Source of the DNA: Roseobacter fucihabitans
Lineage (GTDB): Bacteria; Pseudomonadota; Alphaproteobacteria; Rhodobacterales; Rhodobacteraceae
Length of the DNA: 64,000 nucleotides
Assembly: GCF_014337925.2 (NCBI RefSeq)
Contig: NZ_CP143423.1
Location: forward strand, 464,501-528,500
Reading direction: 5' to 3'
Positions 9,115-46,539 of this stretch are shown here, piece by piece (the stretch's first letter is position 1; each line of letters starts with the position of its first letter). Under the pieces are notes generated by a model that had not been told where the DNA came from, searched no databases, and was given only the letters and a program-made list of their open reading frames with translations. The translations under genes and the position numbers were made by a program.

Positions 9115-9154
9115 GACGCCTGTTGTGCCATGCCGGAGGGGAAGGTCAAGCCAT

Positions 9155-9808
9155 CTATCCGATCTCACGGTCAAAACCGGTATCGGTCTGGCGCATGCTG
9201 ACACGCCCCGCCCAATGCGACCACCACGCCGACAGCGCGGGGTATTCCGCCAGCATCTGGGCCCCTTCCGGTGCTGCGCTAAAGGCGGCAATCATGGGGG
9301 CGAGGTGACAATCGGCCAGTGTCGGCTCAGGCCCCGCCAGAACATGGCCCTGCACTGCGATATCCTCCAGTGCGCGCAAAACGCGGGGTGCCTGTGACAT
9401 TCCTTGGGCGATCTGATCCTCATCTGGTGCCAGCCCCTCCCAGGGCCGGAACACCCGATGTGCAAAAACCTGCCGGACCAGCGGCCAATAGCCATAGGAA
9501 TCGGTGATGCTGATGACCTGGGCCATGCGTGCGGCGGCTTTGGGATTCTGCGGGATCAGGGCGGGATGCGGAAAGGCCAGATCGACATAGCGCAGGATCG
9601 CCGCCGTTTCATAAATCACAAAGCCCTCATGGCTCAGCACCGGCACCCGCCCGAAGGGATGCAATGCGCGGCAGGCATCCGCTGGATCCGTCTCAAACGG
9701 GTCTATAGGGTCGAATTGAAACGCAACGCGCTTCTCGGCAAGCGCCACCAGAACGGCCCGTGTATAAACGCTGTGCTCATAGCCATGGACCGTCAGGCCC
9801 GCGGTCAT
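9155..9808 (-). CDS. Glutathione S-transferase family protein
   Basis: 217 residues with an N-terminal thioredoxin-like half ([31 protein letters not shown] with the cis-Pro; [11 protein letters not shown]) and an all-helical C-terminal half. The position of the usual catalytic Ser/Cys is taken by a Ser-Val-Tyr segment. The start overlaps the ispH stop by four bases, so the gene is translationally coupled to ispH. The substrate is unknown. Confidence 0.88.
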
Positions 9809-42739: not shown

Positions 42740-43795
42740 TTACTGCGCGTATTCTGAGGGGATGACCCACTTTGATCCATTCGAAGAGCGCATGTCAGAA
42801 GAGCAATTCGACGCATACCTGCAATTATGCAAGGAGATTTTTTTAGACATGCAAGCCGCAGGATCTTGGCCACGGTCATCGACGACCTTGTCCCAGTAGC
42901 AATATGGCCAGCCGTAGAATCCACCATCCACGACAGAAGTCAGATAGTCCGGTGGCGTTTCATCCCCAAGCCCATCTCTTTCATTTACCACGGTCCAGAG
43001 TACGCCAGTCGATGGTTCCCACGCTGTTCCGACAGCGTTGCGCAGATCGGTTGCAAAGATACGCGCCTTCCCGGTTGCCACGTCCAGTTCCCAGATCGCG
43101 GCGCGCCCCACTTCGACCTCCATTCCCTGGTCCGCGATATTGCTCAGGGAGCCAACACCCGCGTAGATCTTTGTCTTGTCCGGCGAGACGATCAGGCTGC
43201 GCGTCCAATGGCCGTGGGGTTTGAAGTCAACCAAGGTCTCTCCGTTGCCATTGAGTTGAGTTGCGCCGTCATCGTAATCGAACACTTTGATTCCGTCGGT
43301 GTTGCCAAGGTAAAATCGGTTGCCGACGAGTGCCATTCCAAACGGCTGATTTTGATTTTCCACAAAAACATGTCGGTTTTCTGCGACGCCATCTTCGTCT
43401 TCATCCCGCCAAAGTGTCACTCTGTTCGCACTCTTCCCAATGGCCTTCACCCGTCGCATCGTCGCCTGCGCGGCGTGATCCATCAGCGTTTTCGGAGGTC
43501 CCGCTTGTTCCTTTGATTCCGCAACCAGAACGTCACCGTTAGGAAGAACCTCAATCCAGCGCGGGTGATCAAGTCCCGTGGCGAATGCATTCACCTTCAA
43601 TCCATCTGCGCAAGTTGGCAGTCTTCCGTCTTTCCAACCTTCTGCAGCGGGCATTTTGATTGTCATGATACCCTGACGCCGTGCGTCAGGAATTTCGGGC
43701 TGCAACCCCACCGCCTGGTGCGTTGGAGCGTTGATGCGACGCATGGCGGCAACGGTCCCACCGACGAGCGATGTTGCTTTCGCGAGTAAGTTCAT
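42740..43795 (-). pseudogene. Sorbosone dehydrogenase-like PQQ sugar dehydrogenase, 3'-truncated
   Basis: Reads well from ATG 43795 (GAGGG upstream): a signal-anchor-like start, then beta-propeller motifs of soluble sugar dehydrogenases (GLDHPRWIEVLPNGDVLVAE, GMALVGNRFYLGNTDG, GHWTRSLIVSPD, ERDGLGDETPPDYLTSV, GFYGWPYCYWD). After about residue 311 (VVDDRGQDPA) homology ends and 40 unrelated residues follow to the stop at 42740; normal family members go on for roughly another 100 residues. The break coincides with the mobile-element remnant on the other strand. Probably not functional. Confidence 0.75.
42762..42899 (+). pseudogene. Truncated small ORF typical of transfer modules
   Basis: ATG at 42762 with GAGGGG just upstream. 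The first 37 residues (MTHFDPFEERMSEEQFDAYL, then LCKEIFLDMQAAGSWP) look like a real small acidic protein that follows DUF87-type ATPase genes in mobile DNA. After GSWP the sequence turns into antisense of the sorbosone dehydrogenase gene, so the normal end is lost at about 42861-42873. Function unknown. Confidence 0.55.
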
Positions 43796-44299: not shown

Positions 44300-44667
44300 A
44301 ATTCTTCTCCGCCTATGAGGATTGGAAGAAGACGCGGGCAGCACAGACCAACAATAAGAACGCGCTCATTTGGTCTGCCCAACAGGTGCGCCCTGAGGTG
44401 GCTGTAACCATTGGTCTCCTTCAAGACCGCCACCTTGAAAACACGGGCAAGGAAGTCAGCCGTGCTGAGGTGATCAACGCCTTGGTGGCATCGGGTCTCC
44501 CAGTGATGTCAGTGCCTCTTCCACGTATTGCTCAGGGGTGCGCTCTAATGAGCCTGAACGGGTATCCGAGACCAAGCGTTGAAAAGCATCCATTAGGGCT
44601 GCATGTTCGCGGACCAAGGCAACACCCTCCGCCTGTCTGCTCATTGCGGCTTGAAAGAACGTCTTAG
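44293..44667 (+). pseudogene. Small mobile-element protein, 3' end replaced at a junction
   Basis: The first 70 residues (MLKFFSAYEDWKKTRAAQ ... HLENTGKEVSRAEVINALVA) resemble small DNA-binding or mobilisation accessory proteins with a ribbon-helix-helix-like EVSRAEVINALVASG end. From about 44500 the frame reads antisense of the integrase remnant and is rich in Pro/Arg, so the real C-terminus is gone. Starts inside the end of the 52-residue gene. Confidence 0.5.
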
Positions 44668-44749
44668 GAATTACCTTACGGAGGTCTTGAGGAATTCTTC
44701 TGCGAAAGGTTTTACGCCCGCTTTTGATCACAACATGTTCAAGCTTCAT
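44474..44749 (-). pseudogene. N-terminal fragment of a tyrosine integrase (DUF6538-type arm-binding end)
   Basis: From ATG 44749 the product begins MKLEHVVIKSGRKTFRRRIP, then QDLRKVIPKTFFQAAMSR, the N-terminal arm-DNA-binding signature of phage-type integrases of alphaproteobacteria. After roughly 80 residues (PEQYVEEAL) the frame ends at 44474; the core-binding and catalytic R-H-R-Y domains are absent. It starts about 105 bases from the att-like repeat at 44854, the usual place for an integrase. Confidence 0.65.
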
Positions 44750-44767
44750 AAGCACCGCCATAGTCAA

Positions 44768-44797
44768 TGTATCCCCATTGTATCCCGAAATGTATCC
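44768..44797. repeat. Three phased TGTATCC repeats next to the integrase start
   Basis: TGTATCC occurs at 44768-44774, 44779-44785 and 44791-44797, spaced 11 and 12 bases, that is on one face of the helix. They lie between the integrase start and the att-like repeat. This is the arrangement expected of integrase arm-binding sites. The assignment is inferred from position and phasing. Confidence 0.5.
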
Positions 44798-44853
44798 GAT
44801 GAAAGAGGAGAAGTGCCTGTAATGCTTGAAAACAATAGGCTTTTAGCCTATAA

Positions 44854-44866
44854 AATGGTGCCCAGG
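44854..44866. repeat. att-like direct repeat, left copy
   Basis: AATGGTGCCCAGG, identical over 13 bases to 46452-46464, which is the CCA and acceptor-stem end of tRNA-Leu. A displaced copy of a tRNA 3' end is the usual mark of integration at that tRNA. It bounds the Fic island on the left. Confidence 0.7.
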
Positions 44867-44941
44867 GGACGTTGTGAACCTAGTTGTTGTACCCCACTAA
44901 ATATTATATTTATCAATTAGTTAAGGAGTATCAATATTATA

Positions 44942-44965
44942 ATTGTTGCGGGAATTGTTGCGGGA
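44942..44965. repeat. Perfect tandem 12-bp repeat, left end of the Fic island
   Basis: ATTGTTGCGGGA occurs twice in direct succession (44942-44953 and 44954-44965). The core GTTGCGGG recurs as a pair with the same 12-base spacing near the right end (46359-46378), in the same orientation. Probably a recombinase arm-binding site. Confidence 0.65.
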
Positions 44966-45022
44966 TTTTCAAGTCTGAAGGCTCATCGATCTGAATAAGG
45001 TTGTAGCTCATAATAAGGTGTA

Positions 45023-45152
45023 TGTGATTCACTAAAGACTTTGAGTATATCCTGTGCAAGCGTGGATGGTTTGAGGATCAAGACTGGCAAAAAGTGATTG
45101 ACAAGTTGGTTTGAATCGCACACTTGATACTCACTAGACTTTCTGAATCACA
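45023..45152. repeat. Inverted repeat upstream of fic
   Basis: TGTGATTCA at 45023-45031 and its perfect complement TGAATCACA at 45144-45152; imperfect symmetry continues inward through AAAGACT/AGTCTTT-like strings. The right arm ends 35 bases upstream of the fic start. It may be a paired operator. A TTGACA (45098-45103) lies between the arms. Confidence 0.35.
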
Positions 45153-45187
45153 GAGCCTAGAGTGTGAGGGCCAAATCTAGAAGTTGT

Positions 45188-46321
45188 ATGCGCCTACCTA
45201 TTGATCACTACAGTTTCGACAAAAACGTCGACTATCACTACAACAAGTTTCCGCCGACATCGTTGGACTACGAAAAGCTGTTTGGTCCAATGGGGGACGC
45301 ACGCGATGCCTTGGCAAGATATGACCAAACCCTCCTAGGGCTTCACAACAGCGACTTCTTAGTTAGTCCTTTGCGCAGACAAGAAGCCGTGGTTTCGTCG
45401 CGGATGGAAGGAACTATTTCGACGATTGACGAAGTTTTAAGGTACGAAGCTGACTCAGATGAAGATGTGGGACCGGCAGATGTGAGGCCAACGACGCTTG
45501 AAGTGGCGCTTTACTCGGCCGCCCTGAAAAGAGCGCAAAGAAGCGTGGAGGACGGATATCCAATAAACGAGCATTTGATACGTTCGGCGCACAAGACGCT
45601 GCTTGGTTTTGGGCGCGGCGCAACGAAAAACCCGGGGCAATACAAAACAGACCAAAATTATGTTGGGGATGATGCTAGGCGCGAAGTGTATTTCACTCCT
45701 ATATCACCCGGGCAGCTAGCGCCGTCTATGGAGAAACTAGTCGACTTTATGAACGGTGGTGCCCTGCCGCCCCTTCTAAGCGTCGCAATATCTCACGTAG
45801 AGTTTGAAGCGTTGCATCCGTTCAATGACGGAAATGGCAGAATCGGCCGTATGATTATTACTCTATTGCTCTGGAAAAAGGGGCTAATAAGCGAGCCACA
45901 TTTTTACATCAGCGCATTCTTTGAAGAGCGAAAAGTCGAGTATATTGAACGTATGCGTCAAGTTTCGGCTTCAGGGGATTGGACCGGTTGGTGTGCGTTC
46001 TTTTTGGAAGCGATCGCCGAACAAGCTCAACACAATTTGGAAACTGCAAAGTCCATCGCCAGCCTGTATGAAGAGATGAAACCGGTATTCAGAGAGACCC
46101 TCAACTCTCAGTGGGCGCCATTTGCTCAAGACTTCATTTTTGGAAGCCCGGTATTCAGAAACAACAGGTTTACAACACGAGCTGGAATACCCAAGCCCAC
46201 TGCTGTTAGACTTTCACGTGCCTTAATGGATGCGGGACTATTGATGGAGCTAGAACCCGCGTCTGGACGTCGTGCGGCACTTTATGCATTTGAGCCACTC
46301 ATTCGGTTAATCCGCACCTAA
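45188..46321 (+). CDS. Fic-domain protein (probable AMP-transferase)
   Basis: 377 residues from ATG at 45188 (GTG 45164 is an alternative). The Fic active site HPFNDGNGRIGR is complete (residues about 209-220). An inhibitory-type motif, S-S-R-M-E-G, lies near residue 72 in the N-terminal Fic_N domain, so it looks like a class II, self-inhibited Fic enzyme; a winged-helix-like C-terminus (IPKPTAVRLSRALMDAGLL) follows. These usually transfer AMP to target proteins. AT-richer than the core. No antitoxin gene adjoins, as expected if inhibition is internal. Confidence 0.9.
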   Translation: MRLPIDHYSFDKNVDYHYNKFPPTSLDYEKLFGPMGDARDALARYDQTLLGLHNSDFLVSPLRRQEAVVSSRMEGTISTIDEVLRYEADSDEDVGPADVRPTTLEVALYSAALKRAQRSVEDGYPINEHLIRSAHKTLLGFGRGATKNPGQYKTDQNYVGDDARREVYFTPISPGQLAPSMEKLVDFMNGGALPPLLSVAISHVEFEALHPFNDGNGRIGRMIITLLLWKKGLISEPHFYISAFFEERKVEYIERMRQVSASGDWTGWCAFFLEAIAEQAQHNLETAKSIASLYEEMKPVFRETLNSQWAPFAQDFIFGSPVFRNNRFTTRAGIPKPTAVRLSRALMDAGLLMELEPASGRRAALYAFEPLIRLIRT

Positions 46322-46358
46322 CCCATCTTAACTCAGTGACAGTACTGTTAGTCAGCAT

Positions 46359-46378
46359 GTTGCGGGAAGTGTTGCGGG
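46359..46378. repeat. GTTGCGGG repeat pair, right end of the Fic island
   Basis: GTTGCGGG at 46359-46366 and 46371-46378, 12 bases apart, same orientation as the left pair. They lie about 75 bases inside the tRNA-side att copy, mirroring the left pair, which lies about 75 bases inside the other att copy. A TTTATCAAT string is also shared by both ends (44909-44917 and 46421-46429). Confidence 0.6.
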
Positions 46379-46451
46379 TTTTGGTGCAAATTCGCCCGCG
46401 GGAATCGAACCTAAGAAATTTTTATCAATAAAATAAAATACTTACAAAAAT

Positions 46452-46464
46452 AATGGTGCCCAGG
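46452..46464. repeat. att-like direct repeat, right copy at the tRNA-Leu 3' end
   Basis: AATGGTGCCCAGG covers the encoded CCA, discriminator base and acceptor stem of the minus-strand tRNA-Leu and two flanking bases. It is identical to 44854-44866. Confidence 0.7.
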
Positions 46465-46539
46465 AGAGGACTCGAACCTCCACACCCTTGCGAGTACTAG
46501 CACCTGAAGCTAGCGCGTCTACCATTCCGCCACCTGGGC
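46454..46539 (-). tRNA. tRNA-Leu (anticodon CAG)
   Basis: The minus strand folds into a class II tRNA: acceptor stem GCCCAGG pairing with CCTGGGC, anticodon stem-loop CTAGC-TTCAGGT-GCTAG with anticodon CAG, a long variable arm (TACTCGCAAGGGTG), T-loop GGTTCGAGTCC and an encoded CCA. The 86-base length fits tRNA-Leu. Its 3' end is the integration site of the Fic island. Confidence 0.95.

Follow-up and report, generated by a model that had tools for sequence, protein, structure and literature searches.

Introduction

The locus described here raises the question of how a single fic gene came to lie between two copies of the end of a tRNA gene, with no integrase gene in the same interval. It is located in the window, i.e., the whole stretch of 64,000 nucleotides of Roseobacter fucihabitans DNA analyzed here. 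A preliminary description, made from the letters of this stretch, proposed a minimal, non-autonomous cargo island, or the survivor of a larger element, that moves a Fic enzyme with a foreign integrase. We consider it probable (roughly 0.7) that the interval 44854-46464 represents an integrative cassette with a single gene, composed of a phage attachment site and a fic gene, which a phage integrase supplied in trans would have inserted.

Structure of the element

In integration of the lambda type, IHF bends the DNA to whose arm sites a phage integrase is bound, and recombination takes place between the core and the target. Features corresponding to these parts, together with those directly outside the element, are listed in Table 1. 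For IHF-like sites, we used WATCAANNNNTTR, which we take to be the IHF consensus. Neither these sites nor the integrase fragment beyond the left end had been mentioned in the preliminary description.

Table 1. Features of the element and its borders (positions in the window).
Feature	Position	Strand	Remarks
Truncated integrase N-terminal fragment, DUF6538-like	44474..44767	-	outside element; 17.8 bits, cut-off 27
TGTATCC repeats, 11-12-bp spacing	44768..44798	+	outside element; from sequence
Left core	44854..44866	.	exact 13-bp copy of tRNA-Leu 3' end plus 2 bases
Left IHF-like site TATCAATTAGTTA	44911..44923	+	0 mismatches to WATCAANNNNTTR
Left paired arm sites GTTGCGGG-AATT-GTTGCGGG	44945..44964	+	exact match
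fic gene	45188..46321	+	complete frame
Right paired arm sites GTTGCGGG-AAGT-GTTGCGGG	46359..46378	+	exact match
Right IHF-like site TATCAATAAAATA	46423..46435	+	1 mismatch to consensus
Right core	46452..46464	.	overlaps 3' end of tRNA-Leu
tRNA-Leu (CAG), insertion target	46454..46539	-	ARAGORN

The element is 1598 bp in length. The two copies of the tRNA-Leu end, which had been noticed about 1.6 kb apart, were found again as exact copies of the 13-mer AATGGTGCCCAGG that start at 44854 and 46452; neither strand of the window has a further copy, and these cores sit inside a 28-nt repeat with 79% identity. The degenerate 12-mer core alone is not significant (6 matches with at most two mismatches against 5.96 expected). 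The arm pairs noted inside both ends also proved to be as described, having the same orientation and copies 12 bp apart, and they lie within a 25-nt repeat with 92% identity. The exact pair GTTGCGGG-N4-GTTGCGGG has two matches in the 4.85-Mb genome, both at the ends of the element, and the reversed-pattern control has no exact match in the same genome; the repeats are in this respect not randomly scattered. When two mismatches were allowed, the genome gave 25 matches against 22 for the control, and therefore only the exact pair is informative. The distance from the left core to the arms is 89 bp, which falls within the phage classes (78, 88-89, and 98-99 bp), whereas the distance from the right arms to the core is 83 bp and does not match the 98-119 bp of phages and prophages.

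The fic gene and its relatives

The fic frame is complete, as had been stated, and encodes 377 amino acids from the ATG at 45188 or 385 from the GTG at 45164, with the stop codon ending at 46321. It is the sole gene in the element, and no integrase was found inside. Both the Fic_N and Fic domains are over the Pfam cut-offs, and the motifs HPFNDGNGRIGR and SSRMEG can be read from the sequence. The product matches the SoFic model of PADLOC with 338 bits, for which the tool states no PADLOC cut-off, and scores 138 bits with the SoFic equivalog of NCBIfam, below its 550-bit cut-off. By sequence, its closest solved relatives are protein adenylyltransferases including SoFic.

Homologues with 52-67% identity (E <= 1e-60) are present in 21 other genomes (22 of the 295 family genomes including that of the window). 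The exact arm pair was found at none of the 21 homologous loci, at least four of which end at contig ends, and single GTTGCGGG 8-mers occur at six of them. The fic gene was accordingly rejected as the defining gene of the element. From these loci without the exact arm pair, it is probable that a common gene pool was the source from which the gene was captured. The idea that close phages carry this fic gene was also rejected: no relative was confirmed in IMG/VR and, among 14 matches in 50,697 phage records, the ten listed have 25-31% identity.

We can now consider whether an ordinary chromosomal fic gene is surrounded by repeats that arose by chance. Such a view is favored by the non-significance of the degenerate core alone and by the 21 close homologues lacking such ends. 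It is refuted since the genome has the exact arm pair at the two ends only, and since such ends are seen again, with a conserved geometry, at other tRNA genes; its probability is negligible. The preliminary description would have been refuted by homologous strains with fic embedded in conserved chromosomal sequence, and this was not encountered: by inspection, 16 of 18 congeners have at the same tRNA gene neither such arms within 180 bases nor fic-like continuity. In one congener, a frame akin to the integrase fragment in Table 1 is present.

Prophages and a phage with the same arm sites

Arm pairs were searched beside tRNA genes of other Rhodobacterales genomes, as had been suggested, and they are present. 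Exact-pair scans gave matches in 4 of 19 genomes of the window's genus, 10 of 54 from the genus of Ruegeria atlantica (G344), 2 of 62 from the genus of Sulfitobacter sp. DFL-14 (G332), and 24 of 295 across the family, many of the last being probably due to chance; family-scan matches with no tRNA gene in their 3-kb loci were mostly taken as chance collectively, not one by one. In GTDB contigs at least 118 stretches matched, a number that is not a census.

In the window's genus, one genome (G266) has, at the same tRNA-Leu, a threefold left arm array and a single right copy around one NYN-domain gene. In the window's genome the two pairs are separated by 1.4 kb. Two other genomes have arm pairs 38 kb apart at the same tRNA-Leu (G297) and 39 kb apart at tRNA-Phe (G298), and the pairs are 41 and 37 kb apart in G075 and G344. 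Among nine proteins scanned from the interval in G298, genes for tail, head, portal, terminase, primase, and integrase were recognized. The integrases of these prophages, hereafter called arm-type, are members of a single clade, their N-terminus being DUF6538 and their Phage_integrase domain scoring weakly; they were found in all four prophage genomes tested, the copy in G344 having one stop. The foreign tyrosine integrase that the preliminary description supposed to use GTTGCGGG arm sites would belong to a family located in prophages with the same arms and in one phage. This is Dinoroseobacter phage vB_DshS-R4C, the only close named phage, whose integrase has 56% identity to the arm-type; a search of 50,697 phage records gave three matches, and the other two have 30.5%.

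In R4C, the tRNA-like core lies within 250 bp upstream of the integrase gene, between two IHF-like sites with one mismatch each; three arms precede this group and two arms follow it in the same interval. This attP (L346 1500-1860, MK882925) is readable from the arms and the tRNA-like core, and the feature table is empty there. The authors of the R4C paper based lysogeny on the presence of the integrase, and their text does not contain the term attP (PMC6836515). In five phages and prophages, the left core-to-arm spacings are 78, 88, 89, 99, and 98 bp and the right arm-to-core spacings 118, 98, 98, 107, and 119 bp. Of their ten core-arm segments, six (4/5 left and 2/5 right) contain an IHF-like site when one mismatch is allowed. 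On sequence grounds, the paired GTTGCGGG words are arm sites of a temperate-phage integrase of Rhodobacterales.

A family of short elements

We inspected 31 sequences for both ends, and 13 were classified as cassettes, five (L057, L249, L121, L132, and L185) as carrying the arm-type integrase, and the other 13 as chimeric, contig-edge, chance, or unclassified. The Sulfitobacter group gave no new cassette, both of its matching genomes (2/62) being already in the set, and the family is thus patchy in its distribution. The 13 short elements (Table 2) are 992-1859 bp in length, have one or two genes, and are distributed over several tRNA genes and several genera; named carriers include Sulfitobacter sp. 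DFL-14, Ruegeria sp. Ofav3-42, Paracoccus sulfuroxidans, a Tateyamaria, and a Dinoroseobacter assembly. No integrase was recognized in any of them, and the arm-type integrase was found in none of the 13 carrier genomes at E <= 1e-15, several of which are drafts or MAGs.

Table 2. The 13 short elements.
Element	Length	Cargo	Target
Window	1598 bp	Fic	tRNA-Leu CAG
L062	992 bp	NYN	tRNA-Leu CAG
L289	1324 bp	coiled-coil membrane-type protein (by eye)	tRNA-Arg CCG
L296	1340 bp	cargo family as L289	tRNA-Gln
L290	1221 bp	gene as in L060	tRNA-Arg ACG
L060	1212 bp	gene as in L290	tRNA-Gln
L292	1790 bp	PIN_8	tRNA-Cys
L294	1859 bp	two small genes	tRNA-Cys
L298	1171 bp	DUF7946	tRNA-Ala GGC
L301	1024 bp	DUF4145	tRNA-Asn
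L299	1028 bp	DUF4145-like, split gene	cut-off tRNA-Asn
L300	1208 bp	DUF2971	tRNA-Ser-like core
L291	about 1.4 kb	PDC-S31-like	tRNA-Gln-like core

An intact tRNA gene is present at the right core in ten elements, and none was found after the right core of L291, L299, and L300. The G+C content of all 13 is 5-18 points below that of the flanks. In 11 of them no flank window of equal length is as poor in G+C, the exceptions being L290 (9 of 83 flank windows as low) and L291 (1 of 81).

Two larger insertions at tRNA-Cys, with GTTGCGGG at just one end, were kept out of the cassette count. One is a chimeric island of 8.8 kb (L293 9169-17951, G373) with a GTTGCGGG-type left end and, at its right end, an integrase-like frame with TGTAAACGC repeats (by eye). 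The other is an insertion of about 20 kb (L329/L330, contig C22 of G330) with a GTTGCGGG-type left end and a right end without such arms; G330 also carries a one-gene cassette.

End geometry

Of the 24 core-arm segments of 12 of the 13 elements, 21 contain an IHF-like site when one mismatch is allowed, and 11 contain an exact one; shuffled controls gave means of 3.7 and 0.22, respectively, and did not exceed 9 and 2. From the left core to the arms, the distances fall at 76-78, 88-89, or 99-100 bp, i.e., in steps of about one helical turn; no set among 20,000 random ones was as phased, a figure that is optimistic since the elements are related. At the right, the distance from the last arm to the core is 31-87 bp in 12 elements and 122 bp in L294, against 98-119 bp in the five phages and prophages. 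When the right end of the window element was compared without the core, 77 of 104 columns match L062 and 58 of 113 match the prophage at the same tRNA; the left ends do not separate the two likenesses. The candidate idea that cassette ends are the same as phage ends throughout was rejected, since arms and left spacing agree and right ends differ. This difference weakens both the identity of the ends and a derivation of the elements as remnants of these prophages, and we therefore did not shift the balance between the explanations on its account. The element ends look functional, though not all alike.

By eye, words resembling the tRNA T-arm were seen on the right side, between arms and core, in the window element, L062, L289, L290, L300, L060, L297, L304, and L305, that of L290 being an imperfect hairpin. 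As a mark of cassettes only, these words were rejected because similar ones precede the core in L304 and L305 (by eye).

Cargo genes and the possibility of grounded prophages

Ten proteins, one each from ten elements, were used for cargo scans (the first gene only of L294, and L290 from an internal start). Five matched PADLOC models, i.e., SoFic (338 bits), PD-T7-4 (266), PDC-S42 (231), PDC-S31 (73), and NYN (36); among the rest, one match is marginal (SduA, E 0.009) and four proteins had none. We consider it most likely that the cargo would act as single-gene phage defence. Relatives in PHROGs were found for nine of the ten proteins, and therefore the cargo should not be called foreign to phages and could represent left-over phage accessory genes.

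The last point bears on the main rival explanation, in which full prophages of the R4C type were reduced to their two ends and one accessory gene useful to the host, and so became grounded. Consistent with it are the arms and left-end geometry, which match those of real prophages, the phage-family relatives of the cargo, and the lack of the integrase in all 13 carrier genomes, where nothing resident would move the cassettes now. Against it, the elements gave no recognizable gene for phage structure, replication, or an integrase (Pfam for the main proteins of 11 of the 13 and PHROGs for 10; the cargo of the other two, L060 and L299, is homologous to scanned ones), and the window element does not have inside it the recognizable phage genes expected of a prophage remnant. 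The genes adjacent to the ends of four prophages, named by eye as deoxynucleotide-kinase-like in three and SRAP-like in one, are unlike the cargoes, and 13 separate deletions, each sparing both ends, would be required. The right ends also speak against it, their lengths being unlike those of the sampled phages and that of the window being nearer to L062 than to the prophage at the same tRNA.

A further difficulty for such reduction is a cargo common to two genera at different tRNA genes: L060 and L290, at tRNA-Gln and tRNA-Arg, have 72% DNA identity over 952 bp of cargo, and this homology is confined between the arms, stopping near them. Likewise, L289 at tRNA-Arg and L296 at tRNA-Gln have cargoes of one family. 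The reverse is also seen, since different cargoes are enclosed by similar right ends in the window and L062 (83% identity over 107 bp) and in L291 and L296 (87% over 75 bp). Right ends accordingly tend to follow the target, and the cargo is interchangeable. Since no phage genes were recognized and cargo is shared across tRNAs, an origin by deletion is weakened, and we judge it possible but unlikely.

Occupied and uninterrupted sites

Occupied and empty sites, whose comparison had been proposed, could be compared for three sister elements. Joined host flanks align without interruption in at least 11 of 54 genomes for L296, at least 13 of 54 for L289, and at least 8 of 54 for L292, with 72-87% identity, and the carriers of the three are split at the core in the same alignments. 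For all three elements tested, the uninterrupted sites are in other species of the genus. On the whole, the minimal, non-autonomous cargo island of the preliminary description is supported and its alternative, the survivor of a larger element, is weakened, while the movement itself is something that we infer.

Surroundings and neighboring islands

The integrase fragment left of the element was compared with a frame that adjoins this tRNA gene in G310, and the two have 33% identity over 88 amino acids. It was rejected as the element's own integrase, since it has no similarity to the arm-type and other repeats are nearby. The TGTATCC repeats are possibly arm sites of the fragment's own integrase, and fragment and repeats together probably represent a broken, unrelated tRNA-Leu island. 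The fic cassette is tRNA-proximal to this older, broken island, and tRNA-Leu (CAG) looks like an insertion hotspot. The layout of L294 resembles that of the window, in tandem beside the remains of another integrase.

Several other observations were made around the cassettes. Phased repeats of another word, TGTGGACC, were seen by eye at tRNA-Leu CAG in L248 and less clearly in L244 and L250, all of the window's genus; each integrase clade that uses this hotspot may thus have an arm word of its own. Farther left in the window, a glucose/sorbosone dehydrogenase-like frame (42740-43795; Pfam 25.2 bits, cut-off 25) has a C-terminus that looks replaced and was possibly truncated by an earlier rearrangement. 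In L290, a second arm-bearing right end (9130-9243) lies directly left of the cassette's left core; no second left core for it was found, and it perhaps represents traces of stacked cassettes. A serine-recombinase-like frame (by eye) lies left of the cassette in L296 (7840-9261), and this site hosts an unrelated island too.

Such neighbors would fit a different explanation, in which the cassette is a cis-mobilized module, i.e., moves solely as a passenger when a neighboring island or prophage at the same tRNA is excised via the outer att sites. The adjoining integrase remains of the window and L294, the second right end of L290, and the frame beside L296 would fit it, and ssrA islands of Dehalococcoides without integration modules provide a precedent (PMC3146451). 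It is rather improbable in our judgment: the integrase next to the window element belongs to another clade and is broken, and the arm-type integrase is neither next door nor elsewhere in any of the 13 carrier genomes.

Proposed mechanism

For the cassette moved in trans, the following course is proposed. A phage of the R4C group entering the cell would supply the integrase (and an excisionase), and the cassette would be cut out as a small circle. The integrase would bind the arms, IHF would bend the DNA, the core would recombine with a tRNA 3' end, and the excised circle would in this way be inserted into a tRNA gene. Because the integrase is absent from all 13 carriers, movement would need an incoming phage. 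Transfer between cells may occur via phage particles, with the cassette joined to the phage genome through neighboring att sites, or else by generalized transduction, by gene transfer agents, or by uptake of DNA. The small size of the cassettes would fit the loads of roughly 4 kb that gene transfer agents carry in these bacteria.

Extending this to the whole family, we put forward, as a tentative idea with somewhat less than an even chance, that the elements are minimal phage parasites: attP-plus-one-gene cassettes of about 1-2 kb, which an R4C-type integrase would move between tRNA genes and species, with cargo exchanged between target-specific end pairs and single-gene defence thereby spread in Rhodobacterales.

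Comparison with known systems

CIMEs and the accretion of tRNA/ssrA islands are alike in having flanking att sites and no recombination or transfer genes, and in lying beside other islands; the window element also keeps its att sites and lacks such genes, and in this sense fits a CIME. In the Dehalococcoides paper, 15 ssrA islands without integration modules are called possible cis-mobilizable elements (PMC3146451). The cassettes differ from CIMEs in their size of 1-1.9 kb with one or two genes, their phage-type att architecture, and the lack of a matching integrase in the carrier.

Phage satellites (PICI, PLE, PICMI, and tycheposons) are helper-dependent and often carry defence genes (PMC11389934); the cassettes resemble them in their probable defence genes and in a presumed dependence on a helper phage. 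Satellites have their own integrase and genes for regulation or packaging interference, whereas no integrase, regulator, replication, or packaging gene was recognized in the cassettes, and the window element has only fic inside. MITEs and CALINs also use a recombinase from elsewhere (PMC11389934). Unlike MITEs, which are geneless with transposase ends, and CALINs, which are attC arrays, the elements described here are single cassettes with phage attP-like ends at tRNA genes. Defence islands downstream of tmRNA (I55 and relatives) are similar in RNA-gene target, direct repeats, and defence cargo, and I55 is moved by a phage (PMC12595487); in contrast to the cassettes, these islands are rich in genes, among them one for a tyrosine integrase of their own. 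With R4C and related prophages, the cassettes have in common the arm sequence, the order of parts, and the left core-to-arm spacing classes, but the phage is complete, 36 kb in length, with an integrase and a longer right arm-to-core spacing. No prior description of such cassettes was found among the titles and abstracts of the open literature searched.

The idea is directly testable, since R4C is isolated, its host is culturable, and several carriers are named strains. If it is true, integrase-based island finders would miss these cassettes, and the smallest unit spread by temperate-phage integration would be one gene with one attachment site, by which single-gene defence would spread without a nearby mobility gene.
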